35,305 nucleotides of DNA from an uncultured Croceitalea sp. (GTDB taxonomy: Bacteria > Bacteroidota > Bacteroidia > Flavobacteriales > Flavobacteriaceae). A program made the position numbers and the translations under genes. The notes under the pieces were generated by a model. The model did not search any database. It worked only from the letters and a program-made list of their open reading frames with translations, and had not been told where the DNA came from. This document shows positions 16,280-26,298 of the stretch, piece after piece (the stretch's first letter is position 1; every line of letters starts with the position of its first letter). The stretch is taken from assembly GCA_937969515.1 (NCBI GenBank), contig CALBVX010000043.1, forward strand, positions 1 to 35,305, in the 5' to 3' direction.

Positions 16280-16287
16280 TATTTTTG
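16280..16287 (+). promoter_or_regulatory. -7 box for menD
   Basis: TATTTTTG fits TAnnTTTG exactly and ends six bases before the ATG at 16294. It covers an in-frame TTG at 16285, which argues against that codon as the start. Confidence 0.5.
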
Positions 16288-16293
16288 TCAGGC

Positions 16294-18033
16294 ATGAAGC
16301 AGTCAAATATACCCTCGGCTATAGCAGTAGTTTCAGCATGTCAAGCTAGGGGGATAAAGAATATTGTAATTTCCCCAGGATCGCGAAACGCCCCCCTGAC
16401 TATCAGTTTCACAGAAAATCCATTTTTTAATTGTTTTAGTATTGTAGATGAACGTTGCGCCGCATTTTTTGCATTGGGTATGGCACTGCAGCAACAAAAC
16501 CCTGTCGCCGTTGTATGTACTTCTGGAAGCGCTTTGTTGAACTATTATCCCGCAATTGCAGAGGCATTTTATAGCACGATACCATTGGTGGTAATTTCTG
16601 CTGATAGACCACCCTATAAGATTGACGTAGGTGATGGACAAACCATTCGTCAAGATCATGTTTTTCATAGACATATTGGTTATTCGGCAAATCTTAAGCT
16701 CGATGTTAGTCATGCCAAAGAGCGCATAGAGCGCTATGCTCCTCATTTATTGGAGCAGCAACAGAAAGAAATCGAAAACTACAATGCTTCTGAAGTAAAC
16801 GAAGCGCTTCATGTAGTTTTAGATAAACAACTTCCTGTTCATATCAATATACCTTTTGAAGAACCCCTGTATGATACTCAAAATGTTGGCGAAGCATACC
16901 AAAACTTAAACGATGGTATACAAAGTAATAACAGTGTTTTAAATGACATTAAAAAGTATCGTGACCTTTGGAATTCTTCAAAAAAGAAAATGGTACTTGT
17001 CGGGGTTAACCATCCTAATGCAATAGAAAAAAAGCAATTGGCAGTTCTAGCTAATGATTCCTCGGTGCTTGTTTTTACTGAAACAACTTCTAACCTACAT
17101 CATCAAAATTGTTTTCAAAGTATAGATAGTATTATTTTTCCTATTGAAAAAGCTAAAAATACGGACGAACAGTTTAAAGATTTGCAGCCAGACATCTTGC
17201 TAACCTTTGGGGGCTTAGTAGTTTCAAAAAAAATCAAGGCTTTTTTAAGAACCTACGCTCCTAAGCACCATTGGCATGTAGATGAGGTAAAGGCTTATGA
17301 CACCTATTTTTCTTTAACACATCATTTTAAAACTAATACGAGTGTTTTTTTAGAGGCTTTATTATTGGATAATAAACCTGTAAATAGTACTTATTTTGAT
17401 AAATGGAACTCAGTTAAAAATTCATATGTAGCTAAAAGGAGTAGGTATCTTGAAGAAATTCCGTTTACCGATTTTTCTGTTTTTCATCAGGTTTTAAATA
17501 GTATCCCTAATAATTATCAAGTACATTTAGCGAACAGTTCTACTGTGCGGTATGCCCAACTTTTTGATATTAACCCTACCTTAAAATTATTTTGTAATCG
17601 TGGTACAAGCGGTATCGATGGCAGCACATCTACCGCGATAGGAGCTTCTATGTACGAGAACGGACCAACACTTTTGATTACAGGTGATCTGAGTTTTTTT
17701 TATGACAGTAATGCCCTTTGGAACAGTTATATCAAAAAGAATTTTCGAATAATTTTGATCAATAACTCCGGCGGTGGAATTTTTAGGATTTTACCAGGAG
17801 CAGAAGATTCAGAAAACTTTTCAACCTTTTTTGAGACCCGGCATGGTATGAATGCGGAGCATTTATGTAGGCAGTACGGTTTCGAATATGAAAGTGCTAA
17901 AGATGAAATTCGGCTTAAAGAAAAATTGTTAGATTTTTACGTTAACTCAGAACAACCAAAAGTATTGGAGGTTTTTACTCCTCGAGAGTTAAATGACAAA
18001 ATTTTGCTTGGTTACTTTGATTTTATATCTTAG
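16294..18033 (+). CDS. menD: SEPHCHC synthase (2-succinyl-5-enolpyruvyl-6-hydroxy-3-cyclohexene-1-carboxylate synthase)
   Basis: This 579-residue ThDP enzyme starts at ATG 16294. The N-terminal I-S-P-G-S-R-N-A-P-L and V-D-E-R-C-A-A-F-F-A-L-G provide the MenD signature and the ThDP-activating glutamate. C-S-T-like C-T-S-G-S-A and S-A-D-R-P-P follow. The C-terminal ThDP/Mg motif is G-D-L-S-F-F-Y-D-S-N-A-L through N-N-S-G-G-G-I-F. It condenses isochorismate with 2-oxoglutarate in menaquinone synthesis. It follows menF by 53 nt and has its own -7 box. Confidence 0.95.
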   Translation: MKQSNIPSAIAVVSACQARGIKNIVISPGSRNAPLTISFTENPFFNCFSIVDERCAAFFALGMALQQQNPVAVVCTSGSALLNYYPAIAEAFYSTIPLVVISADRPPYKIDVGDGQTIRQDHVFHRHIGYSANLKLDVSHAKERIERYAPHLLEQQQKEIENYNASEVNEALHVVLDKQLPVHINIPFEEPLYDTQNVGEAYQNLNDGIQSNNSVLNDIKKYRDLWNSSKKKMVLVGVNHPNAIEKKQLAVLANDSSVLVFTETTSNLHHQNCFQSIDSIIFPIEKAKNTDEQFKDLQPDILLTFGGLVVSKKIKAFLRTYAPKHHWHVDEVKAYDTYFSLTHHFKTNTSVFLEALLLDNKPVNSTYFDKWNSVKNSYVAKRSRYLEEIPFTDFSVFHQVLNSIPNNYQVHLANSSTVRYAQLFDINPTLKLFCNRGTSGIDGSTSTAIGASMYENGPTLLITGDLSFFYDSNALWNSYIKKNFRIILINNSGGGIFRILPGAEDSENFSTFFETRHGMNAEHLCRQYGFEYESAKDEIRLKEKLLDFYVNSEQPKVLEVFTPRELNDKILLGYFDFIS

Positions 18034-18065
18034 AAGAATTGTAAACTATAAGAACACTAACAATT

Positions 18066-18407
18066 ATGAGTAAAAGAGACGAATTAATTGAAAAGTATGC
18101 CGCTGACATCAAAAGCAAATTTGGCGAAACCCCTGACATGGACTTGCTAACCAAAGTTGCTATTGGATTAGGCCCAGCGATTTACAACCTTGATGCCTCA
18201 AAGGTTTCGGGCAGTGATGACAAAGAGCTGGAGACGGTAAAGAAGAATTTTTTAATGAAAAAATTAGGTCTTGCCGATAGTCCAAAACTAATGGATGCTA
18301 TCAACACTGTAATAGAAAAGTATGGCAAGTCTGAAAAGAACAAACACCGTGCAGTAATCTATTACCAATTGGCAAGACATTTTAAAAAGGAATCTGTTTA
18401 TAACTAG
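18066..18407 (+). CDS. DUF2853 family protein
   Basis: This 113-residue, lysine-rich, all-helical small protein has the DUF2853 pattern: an N-terminal D-E-L-I-E-K-Y-A-A-D-I-K helix, a central F-L-M-K-K-L-G-L and a C-terminal K-H-R-A-V-I-Y-Y-Q-L-A. Function is unknown; no signal peptide or membrane span is present. It lies 32 nt after menD and is followed by a terminator, so it is likely the end of the menI-menF-menD transcript. Confidence 0.8.
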   Translation: MSKRDELIEKYAADIKSKFGETPDMDLLTKVAIGLGPAIYNLDASKVSGSDDKELETVKKNFLMKKLGLADSPKLMDAINTVIEKYGKSEKNKHRAVIYYQLARHFKKESVYN

Positions 18408-18431
18408 AAACAAATTTTATAGAGATATTTG

Positions 18432-18459
18432 ACCGCTCAGAATTTTGGGCGGTTTTTTT
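18432..18459 (+). terminator. Rho-independent terminator after DUF2853
   Basis: The stem ACCGCTCA/TGGGCGGT (18432-18439 with 18446-18453, one G-U pair) has a six-base loop and is followed by seven Ts. It lies 24 nt after the DUF2853 stop. Confidence 0.85.
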
Positions 18460-18464
18460 ATTTC

Positions 18465-18472
18465 TACTTTTA
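18465..18472 (+). promoter_or_regulatory. -7 box for the cvfB-like gene
   Basis: TACTTTTA fits TAnnTTTR and ends four bases before the ATG at 18477, directly after the terminator. This implies a leaderless message. Confidence 0.45.
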
Positions 18473-18476
18473 CCGA

Positions 18477-19310
18477 ATGATACAGTTAGGAAATTTCAAC
18501 ACGCTAGAAATATTGAGAAGTACGAGCGTAGGTCTTTTTTTAGGCGATGACGAGGGTACTGAGATATTATTACCCAATAAATATGTGCCAGACCCTATAG
18601 AAATTGGTCAAAAATTAACGGTCTTTTGTTATTTAGATAGTAGTGAACGACCTGTATCAACAACACTGAAACCTTTTATTATTAGAAATGAGTTCGCTTT
18701 TTTAGAGGTAGCGGAGTTAAGTACTTATGGGGCATTCATGGATTGGGGTCTAGAAAAGCATTTGTTGGTTCCTTTTCGTGAACAACGCTTAAAAATGGAG
18801 CAAGGAAAAAAATACGTAGTCCATTGCTATTTAGACGAACAATCGTTTCGATTAACGGCATCTAATAAGTTGGATAAATTTCTGGATAACGAAAACATCA
18901 CAAAAAATGTAAATGATGAAGTTTCACTTTTAATAAGTAGAAAAACCGATTTGGGGTGGGAAGCTGTAGTAGATAATAAGCACAAAGGCCTTTTGTTCTT
19001 TAGCGATGTATTTAAAGAAATACAAATAGGCGATAGCATCACGGGCTTCATAAAAAATATAAGGGAAGATAAAAAAATGGATGTATCCTTACTCCCCATT
19101 GGTCAAAAGATGCTAGAACCCACCGCACAACGAATACTAGAAAAGATTAAGGAAGCAGACGGATTTTTAACATTGCACGATAAGTCTTCTCCTGAAGAAA
19201 TAAAACAAGAACTTCAGCTTAGCAAAAAGGCATTTAAAAAAGGGGTAGGTACACTTTACCGAGAGCGAAAAATTCTTATAGAACCTAATGGAATTCGTTT
19301 GGCTGAGTAA
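18477..19310 (+). CDS. CvfB-type S1 domain RNA-binding protein
   Basis: The ATG at 18477 gives 277 residues. An in-frame extension to 18429 would run through the terminator and is rejected. The plan matches CvfB/YitL: tandem S1-like beta-barrels (about 5-60, 70-130 with L-S-T-Y-G-A-F-M-D-W-G-L-E-K-H-L-L-V-P, and 145-210 with G-L-L-F-F-S-D-V) and a C-terminal winged-helix (about 215-277, L-S-K-K-A-F-K-K-G-V-G-T-L-Y-R). CvfB of staphylococci binds RNA and affects virulence gene expression. The role in Bacteroidota is not established. A short hairpin terminator follows. Confidence 0.85.
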   Translation: MIQLGNFNTLEILRSTSVGLFLGDDEGTEILLPNKYVPDPIEIGQKLTVFCYLDSSERPVSTTLKPFIIRNEFAFLEVAELSTYGAFMDWGLEKHLLVPFREQRLKMEQGKKYVVHCYLDEQSFRLTASNKLDKFLDNENITKNVNDEVSLLISRKTDLGWEAVVDNKHKGLLFFSDVFKEIQIGDSITGFIKNIREDKKMDVSLLPIGQKMLEPTAQRILEKIKEADGFLTLHDKSSPEEIKQELQLSKKAFKKGVGTLYRERKILIEPNGIRLAE

Positions 19311-19327
19311 TTTGTCAGTTCTCATTT

Positions 19328-19348
19328 GTAGGTAAAAACCTGCTTTTT
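19328..19348 (+). terminator. Terminator after the cvfB-like gene
   Basis: A six-base stem GTAGGT/ACCTGC closes an AAAA loop and is followed by five Ts, 17 nt past the stop codon. The stem is short and includes a wobble pair. Confidence 0.55.
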
Positions 19349-19402
19349 AACGGTTAATAATAGATTTAATCTGGCTTTATTTTTTTCTTGGTGCAAATAT
19401 TT

Positions 19403-19410
19403 TACATTTG
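19403..19410 (+). promoter_or_regulatory. -7 box for the SPOR-like gene and menA
   Basis: TACATTTG is an exact TAnnTTTG match, 75 nt before the ATG at 19486. The upstream -33 region is only T-rich. Confidence 0.5.
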
Positions 19411-19485
19411 TAAAAATCTATACATTTAAGTGGTTGATAGTTATCTGTTTAGAGCCTATTAATCAAAATTAATATCCATTTATAT

Positions 19486-20085
19486 ATGCCATTTATAGAG
19501 GAGAGCGATTTACTGGATTTACACAAGGATATTGAGAAATCACAAATAATCAATGAGCGATTATTGGATCAAGTAGGTTTCAAAAATAAAGACCTTAGAA
19601 AACTTCGAATACAACGTAATGTATTGGCCGGTATTACTTTAGTCTTTTTGTTGTTGACATTTGGTTTTTGGGCATTTTTCTCCGGTCTTAGAACTTCGAA
19701 TGAATTTAGAGGTCAAGAAGTCTTGGCTGAAGCTGAAGATAGCATAAACTCATTCAGAACCCGAATTAATTTTCTTAAAGAAAGAAATGAAGAGCTAAGC
19801 CTAGTTAAGGAGTTTTACTTGGCAAAGGAATTTTTAGAAAAAGAAAAAATATATTCGGTTCAGGTAAAGTCTTTTGTTGAAAATAACGCTACTTTGGCCT
19901 CTGAGGCACTTACGAATACTTTATTTGTAAAAACAAATCCGTTTTATGCCTATTCTCTGGGTAATTTTGAAACTTTAGAGGAAGCACGACGCTTTAGAAA
20001 ACAGCTTGTAAATATGGGTTTTAAAGATGCCTTTGTTGCCTCTTATCAAGATGGAAAGCGTGTAAAAATTGAAGACCCGTTTTAA
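19486..20085 (+). CDS. Single-pass membrane protein with SPOR-like C-terminus
   Basis: This 199-residue protein has a charged cytoplasmic N-terminus (about 1-45), one hydrophobic span (V-L-A-G-I-T-L-V-F-L-L-L-T-F-G-F-W, about 46-66), a charged coiled coil (about 80-125) and a C-terminal segment (about 128-199). That segment has the beta-alpha-beta pattern of SPOR-like domains: I-Y-S-V-Q-V-K-S-F, then Y-A-Y-S-L-G-N-F-E-T-L-E-E-A, then G-F-K-D-A-F-V-A-S-Y. SPOR domains bind denuded peptidoglycan at division sites, but this assignment is by pattern only. Its stop directly abuts the TTG start of menA, so the two are probably translated together. Confidence 0.7.
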   Translation: MPFIEESDLLDLHKDIEKSQIINERLLDQVGFKNKDLRKLRIQRNVLAGITLVFLLLTFGFWAFFSGLRTSNEFRGQEVLAEAEDSINSFRTRINFLKERNEELSLVKEFYLAKEFLEKEKIYSVQVKSFVENNATLASEALTNTLFVKTNPFYAYSLGNFETLEEARRFRKQLVNMGFKDAFVASYQDGKRVKIEDPF

Positions 20086-20994
20086 TTGAATAAATTAAAA
20101 GCATGGGTAAGCGCTGCTCGTCTTAGAACTTTACCCTTATCCATTTCAGGTATTTTAGTGGGAACGGCCCTTGCAAATCTTCAAGGTTATACAGACATGG
20201 TTGTTTTTTGCCTAGCACTGCTGACGACCATGGCTTTTCAAATCACCTCAAACTTTGCCAACGACTATGGCGATGGGGTTAAAGGCACCGATTCAGATGA
20301 CCGTGTAGGCCCTAAAAGAGCTTTACAAAGTGGTGCCTTAAAAAAAGGAGAGCTTAAATCTGGAATAGTAATTAGTGTTGTTTTTTGTCTTTGTCTCACG
20401 CTTCTATTAATTTATAGGGCTTTTGGTATTGAGAACTGGCTTAACCCACTTCTTTTTCTTGCCTTAGGAGGATTTAGTATTTGGGCTGCAATTCGCTACA
20501 CAATGGGAAACACCCCTTATGGATATAGAGGTTTAGGAGATATTTTTGTTTTTATGTTTTTTGGATTGCTAGGCGTTTTGGGCTGCTTATTTCTTTACAC
20601 TAAGACGTTAGATTATTTGGCAATATTGCCTGCAATAGCTATCGGGTCTTTATGTGTTGGAGTTTTAAACCTTAACAACCTTAGGGATGTTGATTCCGAT
20701 AGAAATCATGGTAAAAACACATTGGTAGTTAAAATGGGTTTTCAAAATGGAAAAAAATACCACTACGCACTAATTTTAATTAGCCTTGTAGCAATGCTAA
20801 CCTTCCATTTTATTAGTATTAAAAGTACTACTCAACTTTTTTATTTTGTGGCTTATATTCCTATTATTTTTCATCTAAAAAAAGTACGTGTAACCAAAGT
20901 TCCTGCTCAACTAGATACTGAATTAAAGAAACTTGCGTTAAGTACATTCCTGCTATCCTTTTTGTTTTACGTAGCAGTTAATTATTTTTCGTAA
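20086..20994 (+). CDS. menA: 1,4-dihydroxy-2-naphthoate polyprenyltransferase
   Basis: This 302-residue UbiA-family membrane prenyltransferase has the first Asp-rich motif F-A-N-D-Y-G-D-G (N59 to D63), the second N-L-R-D-V-D-S-D at about 204-211, and about eight to nine hydrophobic helices. The N-terminal A-R-L-R-T-L-P-L-S is typical of MenA. It attaches the polyprenyl tail to DHNA, giving demethylmenaquinone at the inner membrane. The start is TTG immediately after the preceding stop; no in-frame ATG lies before the conserved N-terminus. Confidence 0.93.
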   Translation: MNKLKAWVSAARLRTLPLSISGILVGTALANLQGYTDMVVFCLALLTTMAFQITSNFANDYGDGVKGTDSDDRVGPKRALQSGALKKGELKSGIVISVVFCLCLTLLLIYRAFGIENWLNPLLFLALGGFSIWAAIRYTMGNTPYGYRGLGDIFVFMFFGLLGVLGCLFLYTKTLDYLAILPAIAIGSLCVGVLNLNNLRDVDSDRNHGKNTLVVKMGFQNGKKYHYALILISLVAMLTFHFISIKSTTQLFYFVAYIPIIFHLKKVRVTKVPAQLDTELKKLALSTFLLSFLFYVAVNYFS

Positions 20995-21028
20995 TTTTAT
21001 TCTAAAGAATAATGTAAACCAACTTATT

Positions 21029-21787
21029 TTGGAACACCCCATAAAGATTCTTATTGTAGAAGATAATGTCATTATTGCAGATGACATGCAATCCATGTTA
21101 GAGGAAATAGGTTATGAAGTTGTAGACAATGTCATTGTATACGAACAGGCAGTTGAGGTTTTAAAGAACAATCATATAGATTTGGTTCTGATAGATATAA
21201 TACTAGCATCGGACAAAACCGGAATAGACTTAGGCAAGCACATAAGAGACGTATATAACATACCTTTTGTATTCGTTACTTCCAATTCTGATAAGGCAAC
21301 AGTAGAAAATGCTAAAACGGTCAAACCAGATGGTTATTTGGTAAAACCTTTTGAGCAACAAGACCTTTATACCTCTATTGAAATTGCCCTATCAAATTTT
21401 AATTATTCGAACAAAACAAATAATAATACCGATGTTGACAATGATGAAGGTGATAGTTTTATGTCCAATTCGGTATTAAAAGACTCCATCTTCGTCAAAA
21501 AACAGCATCTTTATTATCGAATACAGTTTGGTGACATTCAGTTTATAAAAGCTGATAATGTTTATTTAGAGGTTAATACTGTTGACAAGAAATTCTTGGT
21601 TAGATCTCCTTTAAAGGATTATTTAGAAAAGTTACCTAAAGGAAAGTTTTACAGGGCCCATAAGTCATACATCGTTAATGTGGATCATATTGATGCTATT
21701 AACTCAAAGGATATTATGATCAATAATACCTTGATTCCAATTTCTAAAGATTTTAAAGAATTTATTATCTCTTCAATGAACTCTTAA
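21029..21787 (+). CDS. LytTR family response regulator
   Basis: This 252-residue protein starts at TTG. The receiver domain (about 4-125) has the acidic pair E11-D12, the phospho-acceptor D56 in V-L-I-D-I-I-L, T84 and K106 in L-V-K-P-F. After a short Asn/Asp-rich linker comes a LytTR DNA-binding domain (about 150-250; I-Q-F-I-K-A-D-N-V-Y-L-E-V and F-Y-R-A-H-K-S-Y-I-V-N). LytTR proteins bind direct repeats spaced about two helical turns. The next gene encodes a HisKA_2 kinase, the type normally paired with such regulators. The gap between them holds 21-bp-spaced repeats that are the best candidate target. Confidence 0.93.
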   Translation: MEHPIKILIVEDNVIIADDMQSMLEEIGYEVVDNVIVYEQAVEVLKNNHIDLVLIDIILASDKTGIDLGKHIRDVYNIPFVFVTSNSDKATVENAKTVKPDGYLVKPFEQQDLYTSIEIALSNFNYSNKTNNNTDVDNDEGDSFMSNSVLKDSIFVKKQHLYYRIQFGDIQFIKADNVYLEVNTVDKKFLVRSPLKDYLEKLPKGKFYRAHKSYIVNVDHIDAINSKDIMINNTLIPISKDFKEFIISSMNS

Positions 21788-21808
21788 GAACAAGATATTT
21801 AAGATAGT

Positions 21809-21834
21809 AAAATGCCCTTTCAAGGGCATTTTTT
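21809..21834 (+). terminator. Terminator of the LytTR regulator gene
   Basis: The stem AAAATGCCCTT/AAGGGCATTTT has a minimal loop and a T-rich 3' side, 22 nt after the stop codon. Confidence 0.85.
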
Positions 21835-21891
21835 GTTTAATGATGTTGAACAGAAATGCTTTTTAGAAGCATAAACCACATGTAATAGCAA

Positions 21892-21939
21892 GTTCACAAC
21901 AATAATTTCTTTTCATTCTCAAGCTACAATACATTTACT
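21892..21939 (+). promoter_or_regulatory. Candidate LytTR-type site and promoter of RNA 1
   Basis: GTTCACAACAAT at 21892-21903 is followed by -7 TACATTTA at 21930-21937. TTCACAACA begins exactly 37 bp before the -7 box. The 12-mer and the TACATTTACT -7 region are identical to those upstream of kinase 1. No -33 TTTG lies at normal spacing. Confidence 0.4.
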
Positions 21940-21942
21940 ATG

Positions 21943-22024
21943 TATTAATTAAGAAAGTAAATTTTTTCATTTTCATATAGTGTTCTCGTAAAAGAGCCTT
22001 GTCATAAGCGATAAGGCTTTTTTT
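21943..22024 (+). ncRNA. Candidate small RNA 1 (about 82 nt)
   Basis: The proposed transcript begins about six bases after the -7 box at 21930-21937. It ends in a hairpin (AGCCTT at 21995-22000 with AAGGCT at 22013-22018, 12-base loop) followed by seven Ts. There is no convincing coding potential. Both the start and the existence of the RNA are inferred from signals only. Confidence 0.35.
21992..22024 (+). terminator. Terminator-like hairpin 2
   Basis: AGCCTT pairs with AAGGCT, extended by A/T pairs, and runs into a T tract to 22024. No annotated gene ends here, so it implies an unannotated short transcript. Confidence 0.65.
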
Positions 22025-22091
22025 ATGTTTCTAAATTATAGTATAGCTCTCAGATAGTCTTTAAAATGCATAAAACATCGATAAAATACGC

Positions 22092-22144
22092 TTTCACATA
22101 AGACAGCGTTAGTTTCACAACATAATTTGGCACTTTCACAACAT
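22092..22144 (+). repeat. Three direct repeats with 21-bp period (candidate LytTR binding array)
   Basis: TTTCACATAAG starts at 22092, TTTCACAACAT at 22113 and TTTCACAACAT at 22134. The spacing is exactly 21 bp each time, so all copies lie on the same DNA face. LytTR regulators such as AgrA bind nine-base direct repeats separated by about 12 bp, the same period. The array ends 27 bp before a -7 box. Confidence 0.6.
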
Positions 22145-22171
22145 TTTCGAACCGAGGCATGCGTTTCATCC

Positions 22172-22179
22172 TAATTTTG
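22172..22179 (+). promoter_or_regulatory. -7 box downstream of the 21-bp repeats
   Basis: TAATTTTG matches TAnnTTTG. The last repeat's TTCACAACA starts 37 bp upstream, the same distance as at the two other sites. No -33 TTTG is present. Confidence 0.45.
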
Positions 22180-22184
22180 ATAGA

Positions 22185-22255
22185 AATTTATCATGTGCCA
22201 AATCTTACGACATTATAATATTTAAAGGACTATACTTTTTGTATGGTCTTTTTTT
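22185..22255 (+). ncRNA. Candidate small RNA 2 (about 71 nt)
   Basis: The proposed start follows the -7 box at 22172-22179. The RNA would end at the strong hairpin 22224-22255, whose stem GGACTATAC/GTATGGTCT has a T5 loop and a seven-base T tract. It could alternatively be an attenuator in the kinase leader. A ten-codon ATG frame at 22193 is too short to weigh. Confidence 0.35.
22224..22255 (+). terminator. Terminator-like hairpin 3
   Basis: A nine-base stem (22227-22235 with 22241-22249, including G-U pairs) is extended by A-T pairs and closed by a T5 loop. It is followed by T22250-22255. No annotated gene ends here. Confidence 0.7.
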
Positions 22256-22304
22256 AGATATGATGTTTAAGTTGTTGTTAAAATCTCCTCAAACTAACTA
22301 TTCA

Positions 22305-22326
22305 TTAGTGCCTTTTTTGGCATTAA
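22305..22326 (+). other. Stem-loop in the kinase leader
   Basis: TTAGTGCC (22305-22312) pairs with GGCATTAA (22319-22326) around a T6 loop. There is no T tract after it, so it is more likely an mRNA leader structure than a terminator. Confidence 0.4.
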
Positions 22327-22415
22327 ACCTTAGAGATTTTCGACGTAGAATATCGTTTTTATGATGCACAAGATCAATTTGAATATGATTCATAACAAAT
22401 ACAAGTTATTTGAAT

Positions 22416-24407
22416 ATGAAACGTTTTCTAAAGTATAGAATGCAAATAATGCCAAAGCAAGCTAAAATATATCTTCTAATCACCCTTTTTTCATTTGGGT
22501 ACATAGCTGCACAATCTATTCAAAAACAAGAGGTTGATTTGCTTGAAGCTTTTAGGGATAGCGAAAGTGCTTCAGAAAAGTTTGATTTCTTTTTTGAAAC
22601 CCCTAATAGATACACACAAGATTCAGCTTATGATTGGTTAGACGATGTAAAAGTGTATTTAAATAGTGCCGAGAAAATAAATGATTCTTCCGCTATTAGA
22701 CTGTACAAACTTATTAAAGCCCAGTTGTATTTTGATATTGGTGACTATAACAAGAGTATCGCTTTTGCAAAAGAATTACCGAAAAGTAAAGACACATTAG
22801 GGCAAAAGCCCCTAGAAATTTTACTGACCCTACTAGACGAAAACTATAGAGAACTTAAAATGTTCGATGAACAGATTAAGGTCAGGGAAGAAAAAATCGA
22901 ATTGGGCTTTACAGAAGGCGTTGCGTTTTATGATATTTATGAAAAAATGGGGCTTTACAGACGAGCAATGAATAAATATGTTCAGACTGTTGGCCCTACA
23001 ATTGCGGATAACGACCATTTAGGAAAAGCTAAATACCACAATAAGATTGGAAATTTTTTAAGGTTAGAGAAATCAGAACCGACGGCAATAGGAGAATTAA
23101 ATAAAGCAAGTGGTTTTTTACAGGTTGCAGTTAATGATATCACTATCCAAAAAACGGAAAGTGATCTTTTTGATATTGAATTTTTAAATGCAGAAATTGA
23201 AGGGAATATTGGTAAGTGTTATGTCGGCCTAAAACAATACAAGGAGGCCTTACCCCATTTGCAGGCAAGTTTAAAAATTTTCGAAGAATTTAGTAACGGC
23301 AAATATGCAGATCAATTGGTTGACAATACCTTAAGTTTCGCCAATGCACATTTGCAACTTGGAAATTACAAAACGGCCAAAAAACATCTTGACAAGGTTT
23401 ATCAGGTTGAGGACATTCAACAGCAATTAAACCTGAATCATTTATTGGCAAGCTATTATGATAAAACTGAAAATTATAGAACAGCTAACACTTTCTATAA
23501 AAAGAACCAACGAATTTCAGACTCTTTAAAAGCGAATGAACAGTCAATTTTAAAGCAGCAATTGGTTGCTATTGTCGGTACCTCTGACCTAGAGAATTCT
23601 CGTAGATTGGTAAATGAACAAAAGGCTTCTAATGAGAAGTTCAGAAGTGAATTACAACAACAAAGCGAACGTACAAATCTTGTAATTATCTCTTTAATTT
23701 TCACATTACTTGGCTTTGCAGGTTTAGTTTATGCTTATTTAAAGAGTATTAAAAATCAGCGATTAATAGCTCAGCAAAAGCATATTATTGAAGATTCACT
23801 AAAAGAAAAAGATTCTTTACTTAAAGAGATTCACCATAGGGTTAAGAACAACTTGCAAATGGTTTCGAGTCTGCTTAGCCTTCAAACAAAAAACACAAGG
23901 AGTAAGGCTGCGATTGAAGCACTTGAAGAAGGTAAGAGTAGGGTGAAAGCCATGGCCCTTATCCATCAAAAATTATATCAGAACGAAGACCTTTCGGTTA
24001 TTGAAATGCAGGGATACATTGAAAGTCTTATTAATAGTGTGCAATCGGTATACAAGAAGGGCGGTCATAATATCAGTATTACTATCGATGCCGAGGGTAC
24101 TGAGTTAGATATTGATAGAGCCATCCCTTTTGGATTAATTTTAAATGAATTGGTTTCTAATTCTTTTAAATATGCATTTCCGGAAAGTGATGAAAATGGT
24201 AAAATTTATATACACTTAAGAAAGAACGGTGATCAGGGGTATTTTGAATATACTGATAATGGAGTAGGCTTACCAGAGGATACGGATGAACGTGCAAATT
24301 CTTCAATGGGTATTCGTTTAATGAATCGTTTGGTGAATCAATTACAGTCAAAATTGAATGTGGATAAAACCGGCGAAGGTGTCCGGTTTTGGTTCAACTT
24401 TAAATAA
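22416..24407 (+). CDS. TPR-containing sensor histidine kinase, HisKA_2 type
   Basis: The ATG at 22416 gives 663 residues; ATGs at 22440 and 22449 and a TTG at 22410 are alternatives. The N-terminal hydrophobic signal ends Y-I-A-A-Q. A TPR-type helical sensor covers about 50-385, a coiled coil about 390-420, and one membrane span about 423-445 (L-V-I-I-S-L-I-F-T-L-L-G-F-A-G-L-V-Y). The HisKA_2 domain has E-I-H-H-R-V-K-N-N-L-Q (phospho-His about 474), and the HATPase domain has L-I-L-N-E-L-V-S-N-S-F-K-Y, D-N-G-V-G-L and a final G-I-R-L. This kinase class typically pairs with LytTR or other non-OmpR regulators, here probably the protein at 21029-21787. It ends one base before the convergent SDR gene. 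Confidence 0.92.
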   Translation: MKRFLKYRMQIMPKQAKIYLLITLFSFGYIAAQSIQKQEVDLLEAFRDSESASEKFDFFFETPNRYTQDSAYDWLDDVKVYLNSAEKINDSSAIRLYKLIKAQLYFDIGDYNKSIAFAKELPKSKDTLGQKPLEILLTLLDENYRELKMFDEQIKVREEKIELGFTEGVAFYDIYEKMGLYRRAMNKYVQTVGPTIADNDHLGKAKYHNKIGNFLRLEKSEPTAIGELNKASGFLQVAVNDITIQKTESDLFDIEFLNAEIEGNIGKCYVGLKQYKEALPHLQASLKIFEEFSNGKYADQLVDNTLSFANAHLQLGNYKTAKKHLDKVYQVEDIQQQLNLNHLLASYYDKTENYRTANTFYKKNQRISDSLKANEQSILKQQLVAIVGTSDLENSRRLVNEQKASNEKFRSELQQQSERTNLVIISLIFTLLGFAGLVYAYLKSIKNQRLIAQQKHIIEDSLKEKDSLLKEIHHRVKNNLQMVSSLLSLQTKNTRSKAAIEALEEGKSRVKAMALIHQKLYQNEDLSVIEMQGYIESLINSVQSVYKKGGHNISITIDAEGTELDIDRAIPFGLILNELVSNSFKYAFPESDENGKIYIHLRKNGDQGYFEYTDNGVGLPEDTDERANSSMGIRLMNRLVNQLQSKLNVDKTGEGVRFWFNFK

Positions 24408-24408
24408 T

Positions 24409-25203
24409 TTATTTGACTTCGCTTTTTAAAACTAGCTTGTGAAGCAGTTTTGGAAAAAAACGTTTTACGTAAACACCTTTGGTTTCTTTTCCACCTATAT
24501 AAGCTTCGTAACTCTTTTTCTCGATCGCCCTTATCATTTTACGACTTAATTTAGTAGTCGAAATTCCATTTGCAGTGGCCTTGTCATTTTCACCTTGAGC
24601 AGAACCATCACCGGTAAGCGCACTTTTCGCAATATTGGTATTTACGAAACCTGGGCATATCATGGTTACATCGATATTGTCTTTTTCATGTTCCATGCGC
24701 AAAGCGTCAAAAAAACCATGTAAAGCATGTTTGGCCCCACAATAACCGGAACGATAGGGAGAAGAAAATTTACCCATTAAGCTACTTACGGTGATAAAGT
24801 GACCTGATTTTTGGGCTACAAAGTACGGCAAGATGGCTTTTGTCAATGCAACCGTACCTAAATAATCGACATCTATCATTTTTTGATACACACTAAAATC
24901 GGTTTCTGCGATCAAAGACCGTTGGCTAATACCGGCGTTATTGATTAGAATATCGATCTTTCCAACGAGTTCTATGGCTTCCTTAACTTTCTTTCCCATG
25001 ATAGAAAATTCAGTGACATCTAATGGAAGTACAAAGACATTACTTTTATTAATACAAGAATTTCTAACTTCTTCAAGTGCTTCTTTTCGCCTAGCGGACA
25101 AGATGAGCCTACAATTTTTAGAAGCAAGTTGATATGCTAGTTCCTCTCCAATACCTGAAGATGCTCCGGTAATCCAAACTGTTTTTCCATCAATTCTTGC
25201 CAT
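24409..25203 (-). CDS. Short-chain dehydrogenase/reductase
   Basis: This 264-residue classical SDR has the cofactor motif T-G-A-S-S-G-I-G (12-19), N-N-A-G (88-91) and the catalytic set S140/S141, Y154, K158 in Y-C-G-A-K. The R at positions 38-39 suggests NADP(H). A C-terminal extension rich in basic and aromatic residues (about 225-264) resembles the DHRS7-like/short-chain subgroup with membrane association. The substrate cannot be predicted. It is divergent from menC with a 42-nt gap. Confidence 0.88.
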   Translation of the reverse strand: MARIDGKTVWITGASSGIGEELAYQLASKNCRLILSARRKEALEEVRNSCINKSNVFVLPLDVTEFSIMGKKVKEAIELVGKIDILINNAGISQRSLIAETDFSVYQKMIDVDYLGTVALTKAILPYFVAQKSGHFITVSSLMGKFSSPYRSGYCGAKHALHGFFDALRMEHEKDNIDVTMICPGFVNTNIAKSALTGDGSAQGENDKATANGISTTKLSRKMIRAIEKKSYEAYIGGKETKGVYVKRFFPKLLHKLVLKSEVK

Positions 25204-25231
25204 AAGAGTTTATTTAGGCTTAAAATATAGC

Positions 25232-25239
25232 TAATTTTG
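25232..25239 (+). promoter_or_regulatory. -7 box for menC
   Basis: TAATTTTG matches TAnnTTTG and ends six bases before the menC ATG. A weak -33 TTTA lies 19 nt upstream (25209-25212). Confidence 0.5.
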
Positions 25240-25245
25240 AACTAG

Positions 25246-26298
25246 ATGATAGCATTCTATAAACGTCATGAGCTTATTTTTAAACGCCCAAGTGGAACTT
25301 CGAGAGGTGTTTTAAAGAAAAAAGAAACTTGGTTTTTAATTTTAAAGAACGGCCAAAATTATGGAATAGGAGAGTGTGGACTTTTAAGAGGATTAAGTTT
25401 TGATGATGTTCCACATTATGAAGAAAAGTTAATCTGGGTTTGTGAAAACATAGATTTAGGTCTCAAAAATTTATTAATAGAGCTAATAGATTTTCCTTCA
25501 ATACAGTTTGGTTTAGAGCAGGCTTTTTTATCGCTTCGAGCTAAAGATCCATTTCATCTTTACCCAAGTAATTTCATATTAAATGAGTCTCCTATTGAAA
25601 TAAATGGACTTATTTGGATGGGTAGCAAAGAATTCATGCTCGAACAGATTTCAGAAAAGCTTGAATCTGGCTTTACCTGTATTAAAATGAAAATTGGGGC
25701 CATTGATTTCGAGACTGAACTGTCGTTGCTAAGTTCCATCAGAGAGGTATATGGCAAAGAAGAAATTGAACTGCGTGTTGATGCAAATGGCGCTTTTAAA
25801 CCAATGGAAGCCTTATCTAAGTTGAAAACCTTATCCCAGTTTGAATTACATTCCATTGAACAGCCAATAAAGCCAGGTAACCTGCAAGAGATGGCCCGTT
25901 TATGCAAAACAAGCCCGTTACCTATTGCTCTAGATGAAGAATTAATCGGCGTTGTGAGTTTACAAGAAAAACGAAAAGTACTTGAATCCATAAATCCCCA
26001 ATATATTATTCTTAAACCAAGTTTGGTTGGCGGTTATAAAGGTTCACAAGAATGGATAGACCTAGCAGAAGCGCTTGATATAAAATGGTGGATTACAAGT
26101 GCCTTAGAGAGTAATATTGGGTTAAATGCAATTGCACAATGGACATACACTCTCAAAAGTAATTTACCTCAGGGATTGGGAACGGGTAGTCTCTTTACCA
26201 ACAATTTTGAAAGCCCTTTGCATGTTGCAAAAGGCAAGTTGTTTTATAGAAAAGATTTATCTTGGCAGCAAGATTTAATAGAACAGTTATGTATATAG
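25246..26298 (+). CDS. menC: o-Succinylbenzoate synthase
   Basis: This 350-residue enolase superfamily protein has the K-x-K motif in C-I-K-M-K-I (K147, K149), metal ligands D179 in R-V-D-A-N-G, E205 in I-E-Q-P and D230-E231, and the opposite-face lysine K257 in I-L-K-P-S. It dehydrates SHCHC to o-succinylbenzoate. The enolase superfamily also contains muconate cycloisomerases and dipeptide epimerases, but an overlapping downstream CPBP gene and menE make MenC nearly certain. Its last ten bases overlap the start of the CPBP protease gene. Confidence 0.92.
   Translation: MIAFYKRHELIFKRPSGTSRGVLKKKETWFLILKNGQNYGIGECGLLRGLSFDDVPHYEEKLIWVCENIDLGLKNLLIELIDFPSIQFGLEQAFLSLRAKDPFHLYPSNFILNESPIEINGLIWMGSKEFMLEQISEKLESGFTCIKMKIGAIDFETELSLLSSIREVYGKEEIELRVDANGAFKPMEALSKLKTLSQFELHSIEQPIKPGNLQEMARLCKTSPLPIALDEELIGVVSLQEKRKVLESINPQYIILKPSLVGGYKGSQEWIDLAEALDIKWWITSALESNIGLNAIAQWTYTLKSNLPQGLGTGSLFTNNFESPLHVAKGKLFYRKDLSWQQDLIEQLCI

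Follow-up and report, generated by a model that had tools for sequence, protein, structure and literature searches.

Two arrays of 21-bp-spaced direct repeats in the gap between a LytTR response regulator gene and a histidine kinase gene of an uncultured Croceitalea sp. are best read as operators of that regulator. From them it would activate short transcription units, above all a multicopy small RNA, RNA1, with a core complementary to the region where translation of a CAP-domain lipoprotein mRNA begins. In this species the second array, a triple repeat, would drive a further short RNA, RNA2; in many relatives it would drive the kinase gene. We give this reading a probability of roughly 0.8.

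Organization of the regulator-kinase gap

The window is the whole 35,305-nt stretch of DNA that was analysed. The first-pass annotation had described a triple repeat in it, between a LytTR response regulator and a HisKA_2 kinase; Pfam searches bear out both neighbours, a protein with Response_reg and LytTR domains on the left and a TPR, HisKA_2 and HATPase_c kinase on the right. The gap between them contains two cassettes, each of operator, promoter and terminator in the same geometry, made up of the following features.

21029 to 21787, + strand: LytTR response regulator (RR) gene (open reading frame, Pfam Response_reg and LytTR, orthologs)
21809 to 21832, + strand: terminator of the RR gene (terminator scan)
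21875 to 21901, + strand: operator 1, ACCACA-12-TTCACAACA with a 21-bp period (exact match, conserved 5' of RNA1)
21930 to 21937, + strand: -7 element of the RNA1 promoter, TACATTTA (sequence, geometry, TAnnTTTG consensus)
about 21942 to 22023, + strand: RNA1, a predicted small RNA of about 82 nt (start inferred from the -7 box)
21964 to 21992, + strand: 29-nt RNA1 core, the predicted target-pairing segment
21990 to 22023, + strand: RNA1 terminator hairpin (terminator scan, consensus fold, covariation)
22092 to 22144, + strand: operator 2, the triple 21-bp repeat (sequence, conservation in relatives)
22172 to 22179, + strand: -7 element of the operator-2 promoter, TAATTTTG, Bacteroidetes-type (sequence, geometry)
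22184 to 22257, + strand: RNA2, a predicted second short RNA with a CCAAATCTTA motif (start inferred)
about 22224 to 22257, + strand: terminator-like hairpin of RNA2 with a U tract (folding; not listed by the simple terminator pattern scan)
22410 to 24407, + strand: TPR-HisKA_2-HATPase_c histidine kinase, the presumed partner of the RR (open reading frame, Pfam)

The operator at 21875-21901, the terminator at 21990-22023 and the hairpin with its U tract at about 22224-22257 go beyond the earlier description. In the first cassette TACATTTA sits 37 nt from the start of TTCACAACA, and the -33 element is imperfect. The wider neighbourhood (window 16285-26298) is of menaquinone type, with a menD-like ORF identified by eye and, by Pfam, a UbiA prenyltransferase and a MenC_N/MR_MLE_C protein.

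The triple repeat as a probable LytTR operator

The repeats reported previously are present as described: TTTCACATAAG, TTTCACAACAT and TTTCACAACAT, built on TTTCACA units, begin at positions 22092, 22113 and 22134 of the + strand, exactly 21 bp apart, and the -7 box claimed downstream of them is found as TAATTTTG at 22172-22179. The window contains two matches to TTTCACA-N14-TTTCACA, and 100 dinucleotide shuffles gave none. No second copy of the TTTCACA triple exists in the available assembly, which is 54% complete at 2.09 Mb, and the reversed pattern has no match there.

Conservation was assessed in one genome per species with the regulator, using 80 named loci, the best 80 of 285 (88-98% identity). 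A scan that demanded both half-sites, with no more than one mismatch in total, recovered operator 2 in 79 of these 80 best loci. The annotation had named lack of conservation in genomes with the regulator-kinase pair as a result that would refute an operator, and this result answers that objection. The usual form in relatives, in the same 79 of the best 80 of 285 loci, is TTTCACAACA twice and then mostly TTTAATTTTG; most of them have only a degenerate version (TT.acaTac) of the half-site that comes first in the triple, one step further up.

The spacing was rechecked from a single half-site, so that the 21-bp period was not presupposed. The gaps of the best 80 of 285 loci contain 203 exact TTCACAACA sites. 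ACMACA lies precisely 21 bp upstream of 128 of them, and no other offset between 10 and 32 accounts for more than 9; for the exact TTCACAACA sites that precede RNA1 the proportion rises to 78 of 87. Half of the operators (80 of 160) have TAnnTTTG, which is the -7 consensus (PMC9723704), exactly 37 nt downstream, and none has it at another offset between 28 and 47. The arrangement thus meets what is expected of LytTR direct repeats, namely half-sites about two helical turns apart (18-21 bp) in a site just upstream of a promoter. As far as the accessible text of PMC11347149 goes, LytTR binding by CoxC and RcoM1 requires three direct repeats, spaced 18-21 bp in CoxC; unlike the RR at operator 2, these are one-component gas-sensing regulators, and their repeat sequence differs. 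The proposal that the array is the operator of the neighbouring RR is supported by this observed conservation, and binding itself is inferred.

The operator is not confined to the gap. With up to one mismatch, the two-half pattern occurs 11-21 times per genome, compared with 1-6 times for the reversed pattern (12 genomes). Within the window's genus it precedes, as judged by eye, tandem RNA1 genes, a 35-aa protein, PAS-type kinases, a leucine-rich-repeat-like protein and others. The 35-residue protein (MTSEFNHMPIEEEIKVYRNDFYAGFAQLVKKLFML in locus L174) is highly conserved. In three genomes of that genus, at loci L174, L181 and L187, it immediately follows a LytTR operator, 90-91 nt from the point where the half-site TTCACAACA begins. 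At four other loci (L176, L183, L188 and L192) the operator stands before large sensor-kinase-like genes, PAS-type by eye, which suggests that the regulator controls further kinases.

RNA1, a predicted multicopy family with an invariant core

The RNA1 core, TTTTCATTTTCATATAGTGTTCTCGTAAA, is found with up to three mismatches in 71 of 397 genomes of the family, in 198 copies, and its reversed pattern is found in none. At least two copies are present in 66 of the 71 core-positive genomes, with a maximum of six; a congener of the window species, G006, has a single strong RNA1 copy. The gap beside the regulator contains the core in 75 of the best 80 of 285 loci, with an operator of like geometry 5' and an intrinsic terminator 3'. 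Many other copies lie away from the regulator, and some are in tandem, about 200-260 bp apart.

Sixty-four copies, gathered from the loci with up to four mismatches permitted, were aligned, and 24 consecutive core columns are invariant among them. A two-half 21-bp operator with no more than two mismatches lies upstream of 119 of 120 RNA1 copies and is exact in 78 of the 120, while the best of 120 mononucleotide-shuffled 160-nt upstream regions has four mismatches. A -7-like box is also present in the RNA1 consensus. In the consensus fold the core is unpaired and the terminator stem covaries; in the window copy folded alone, part of the core falls within a weak 6-pair stem. Cells changed on both sides of the terminator stem number 59 compared with 22.5 in shuffles, and 95.3% of its cells are paired versus 38.8-67.9% when the stem is slid. 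The number of pairs with a both-side change is not unusual (7 versus 5.5, with 57 of 500 shuffles reaching 7).

RNA1 thus has the marks of a multicopy small RNA, that is, several near-identical copies, each with its own promoter and intrinsic terminator, judged from sequence alone; its expression and the ends of its transcript are inferred. No match at the gathering score was found in Rfam release 15 for 16 loci. The sub-threshold matches in window 20900-23000, to PsrR1 (E 0.32) and mir-626 (E 0.49), were judged to be due to chance.

Co-occurrence of RNA1 and the regulator

An RR ortholog (E up to 1e-90) is present in 79 of the 397 family genomes, and these include all 71 core-bearing genomes. 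The regulators of the eight RR-positive genomes without a core are, bar one, the most diverged (67-76% identity). Read by eye, most of the core-less gaps retain repeats with the 21-bp period and short units that end in a terminator, and a CCC(C)AA-type stretch is frequent; the repeats are weak in one of them (L236, genome G264). In another genome, G126, the region 3' of the RR gene (L235) holds about four tandem operator-plus-short-unit cassettes without an RNA1 core.

A covariance model of RNA1 found strong copies (above 65 bits) in all nine core-bearing genomes it was run on and none above 37 bits in 11 others. Across 295 genomes of the class, searched with the stricter filters of Infernal, strong copies occurred only in the window's own genome and the 11 other matches scored no more than 50.6 bits, ten of them, below 42 bits, being left uninspected. 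The highest of the 11, in G614 (50.6 bits), was read and judged to be a chance terminator after another gene. The observed co-occurrence is confined to one part of the Flavobacteriaceae; the genomes therefore do not count as independent, and the totals are inflated by common descent.

A CAP-domain lipoprotein as the predicted target

The RNA1 core shows complementarity to the mRNA of a CAP-domain lipoprotein (Pfam CAP) around its start codon. A search for the core complement gave start-codon matches in the orthologous CAP lipoprotein of three genera, and an ortholog search gave matches in 74 of 80 genomes. Duplex energies were then computed in fixed windows, with the genomes that had revealed the target excluded. 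Between the core and the CAP start the median is -24.1 kcal/mol over 46 core-bearing genomes, and 28 of the 46 are at or below -22; when the core is shuffled 300 times, on average 0.07 and never more than 3 of the 46 reach that value. None of 18 RR-less genomes is at or below -22 kcal/mol (best -16.0), nor is any of six core-less RR genomes (best -12.6), and 15 further CAP genes (the second or third in an RR-positive genome) have a median of -9.0 and a best of -13.0.

The pairing is weaker than -22 kcal/mol in 18 of the 46 core-bearing genomes. Within the window's genus (six genomes, G000 excluded), only G004 passes, and this genome had helped to reveal the CAP target; the other five (G001, G003, G005, G006 and G007) lie between -11.4 and -16.7 and are all counted among the 18, which suggests that the window species may use other targets. 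Across 30 CAP loci, the 400 bp upstream never contain an operator with up to two mismatches, which makes the gene look like a target of the RNA and not of direct transcriptional control.

In the genome at large the complement GAGAACACTATATG, with up to one mismatch and RNA genes excluded, has 17 matches in 12 RR-positive genomes versus 11 in 12 RR-less genomes, and the reversed pattern has 8 and 15, respectively. The complement is not clearly over-represented genome-wide, and the case for a target consequently rests on position and orthology, not on number. Sixteen of the 17 RR-positive matches were read: the ATG is a predicted start in four, four more lie 22-68 nt before one, and the remainder are mostly in coding interiors. 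None of the nine RR-less matches read (of 11) falls at a start codon, seven being inside an ORF and two having no listed ORF on the strand. A second complement pattern identifies 19 further places, including the CAP gene of G424. Its start-codon matches are in one gene shared by G000 and G003 and in another gene of G003; several others are inside ORFs, and one locus (L421) looks like a further RNA1-type gene.

At two loci from two species of one genus (L280 and L285), a 12-13-nt core complement lies 66-68 nt before genes that are GldL-like by eye. The leads that lack an ortholog series comprise GldL-like leaders in G230 and G397, a small lipoprotein in G033 and the start-codon genes of the second pattern.

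Taken on the complementarity that is observed, RNA1 appears to be built to pair with the start of the CAP mRNA, probably switching it off; the regulation, including any translational block, is inferred.

Predicted RNA2 and the kinase promoter

In the window species a terminator-like hairpin follows the triple array after about 75 nt, so the array most likely drives a short RNA and not the kinase gene directly. The same order, from array promoter to a short unit with the CCAAATCTTA motif and a terminator, is seen in Croceitalea, Croceivirga and Eudoraea-type loci. Overall, by the scan, a terminator separates array and kinase in 21 of the 80 sequences (the best 80 of 285), of which one (L090) and perhaps another (L106) are spurious, and several terminator-bearing loci have a further, weaker operator closer to the kinase. 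The RNA2-type units of G033 and G087 contain a core-like stretch, which makes it likely that RNA1 and RNA2 are paralogs. In Flagellimonas/Allomuricauda-type loci the kinase start lies mostly 130-235 bp after operator 2 and the scan finds no terminator between them, and there the array probably autoregulates the kinase. The array thus precedes a diverged short RNA here and appears to drive the kinase in the Flagellimonas/Allomuricauda-type loci.

Alternative explanations and the proposed circuit

The most serious competing account, which we regard as possible but considerably less convincing, makes the triple array an autoregulatory kinase promoter and nothing more, with the hairpin at 22224-22257 as a leader attenuator instead of the end of a free small RNA. 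The Flagellimonas/Allomuricauda-type loci, in which the scan found no terminator ahead of the kinase, fit it, but it has to contend with the terminators that intervene in Croceitalea, Croceivirga and Eudoraea-type loci, several of which have their weaker operator nearer the kinase, and it leaves RNA1 unexplained. It is also conceivable that another LytTR paralog binds the repeats in place of the adjacent RR, since some genomes hold a more distant related regulator (31-43% identity). We consider this improbable, because the core tracks the ortholog of the adjacent RR over 397 genomes and, of the best 80 of 285 loci, 75 have the core in the gap next to the RR gene.

Common descent or the A/T-rich composition of start codons could also produce the match at the CAP start without any pairing; A-rich start regions, the relatedness of the genomes and the lack of a clear genome-wide excess of the complement all lend this some weight. 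It remains unlikely, given that shuffled cores, RR-less orthologs and the other CAP genes of RR-positive genomes show no comparable pairing and that the RR-less matches that were read avoid start codons. Hardest to sustain is the idea that the core acts as DNA, either as a protein site or as the end of a mobile element. Its extreme invariance and its multiple, sometimes tandem copies might be so explained, but not the operator, the -7-like box in the consensus and the covarying terminator that accompany it, nor the single orientation of the start-codon complementarity, and the core has no exact match in IMG/VR viral contigs.

The reading we prefer, an RR-controlled set of short RNAs, would work as follows. 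The phosphorylated RR probably binds TTTCACAACA half-sites, 21 bp apart and immediately 5' of the -33 region, and would then activate short transcription units, with multicopy RNA1 as the main output; both the signal and activation, as opposed to repression, are inferred. The invariant core, antisense to the translation start of the CAP lipoprotein and perhaps of other exported proteins, would mask the start codon and block translation without Hfq. None of 12 genomes gave a match to Hfq (PF17209), and the search recovered it from 5 of the 14 named genomes that served as a control. The triple array would lead to the diverged, probably paralogous RNA2 in this species and to the kinase gene in many relatives, where it would constitute autoregulation.

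Relation to known systems and significance

In AgrA-RNAIII and VirR-VR-RNA a LytTR regulator activates a regulatory RNA from repeat operators; both are Firmicutes systems with one longer RNA and are not known to have a multicopy short family. The circuit proposed here shares with them the LytTR regulator, the repeat operators and the RNA, and differs in that RNA1 is short and multicopy. The Vibrio Qrr1-5 RNAs are several near-identical small RNAs under one regulator, as is proposed for RNA1; that regulator, LuxO, is a sigma-54 activator, and the Qrr RNAs are Hfq-dependent. LisR, of the two-component system LisRK, is an OmpR-type regulator. According to the portion of PMC4132741 available to us, LhrC1-5 of Listeria monocytogenes is a multicopy small RNA that needs LisRK for expression, impedes translation of envelope-protein mRNA, uses three CU-rich sites for pairing and binds Hfq but does not depend on it. 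It thus resembles RNA1 as proposed here, a multicopy small RNA under a two-component system with a predicted envelope-protein mRNA target (PMC4132741). On the same partial text, the proposed RNA1 is unlike LhrC in its LytTR control, in having one invariant core over the start codon, in belonging to another phylum and in that no Hfq gene was found. Closer in phylogeny, Rfp18 of Flavobacterium psychrophilum is a Flavobacteriaceae small RNA that, like RNA1, has predicted secreted-protein targets; it differs in its strong predicted secondary structure, and the word LytTR is absent from the main text of its report, insofar as this was accessible (PMC9723704). Searches confined to the open-licence literature turned up no description of a two-component-driven small RNA circuit of this kind in Flavobacteriaceae.

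At the level of the family, we find it fairly probable, with less assurance than attaches to the circuit in itself, that in many marine Flavobacteriaceae the main output of a dedicated LytTR two-component system is a family of Hfq-free, multicopy, start-codon antisense RNAs that would silence envelope lipoproteins. Its cassettes would have duplicated and diverged in the regulator-kinase gap, leaving nested RNA1 and RNA2 arrays that are co-inherited with the regulator. The window gives one readable circuit: a regulator, its operator, the RNA predicted as its output, and one candidate target with wide conservation. This circuit lies in a group in which no Hfq was found (0 of 12 genomes). Through RNA1, and in harmless marine strains, the silencing of mRNAs by Bacteroidetes small RNAs without Hfq becomes directly testable.
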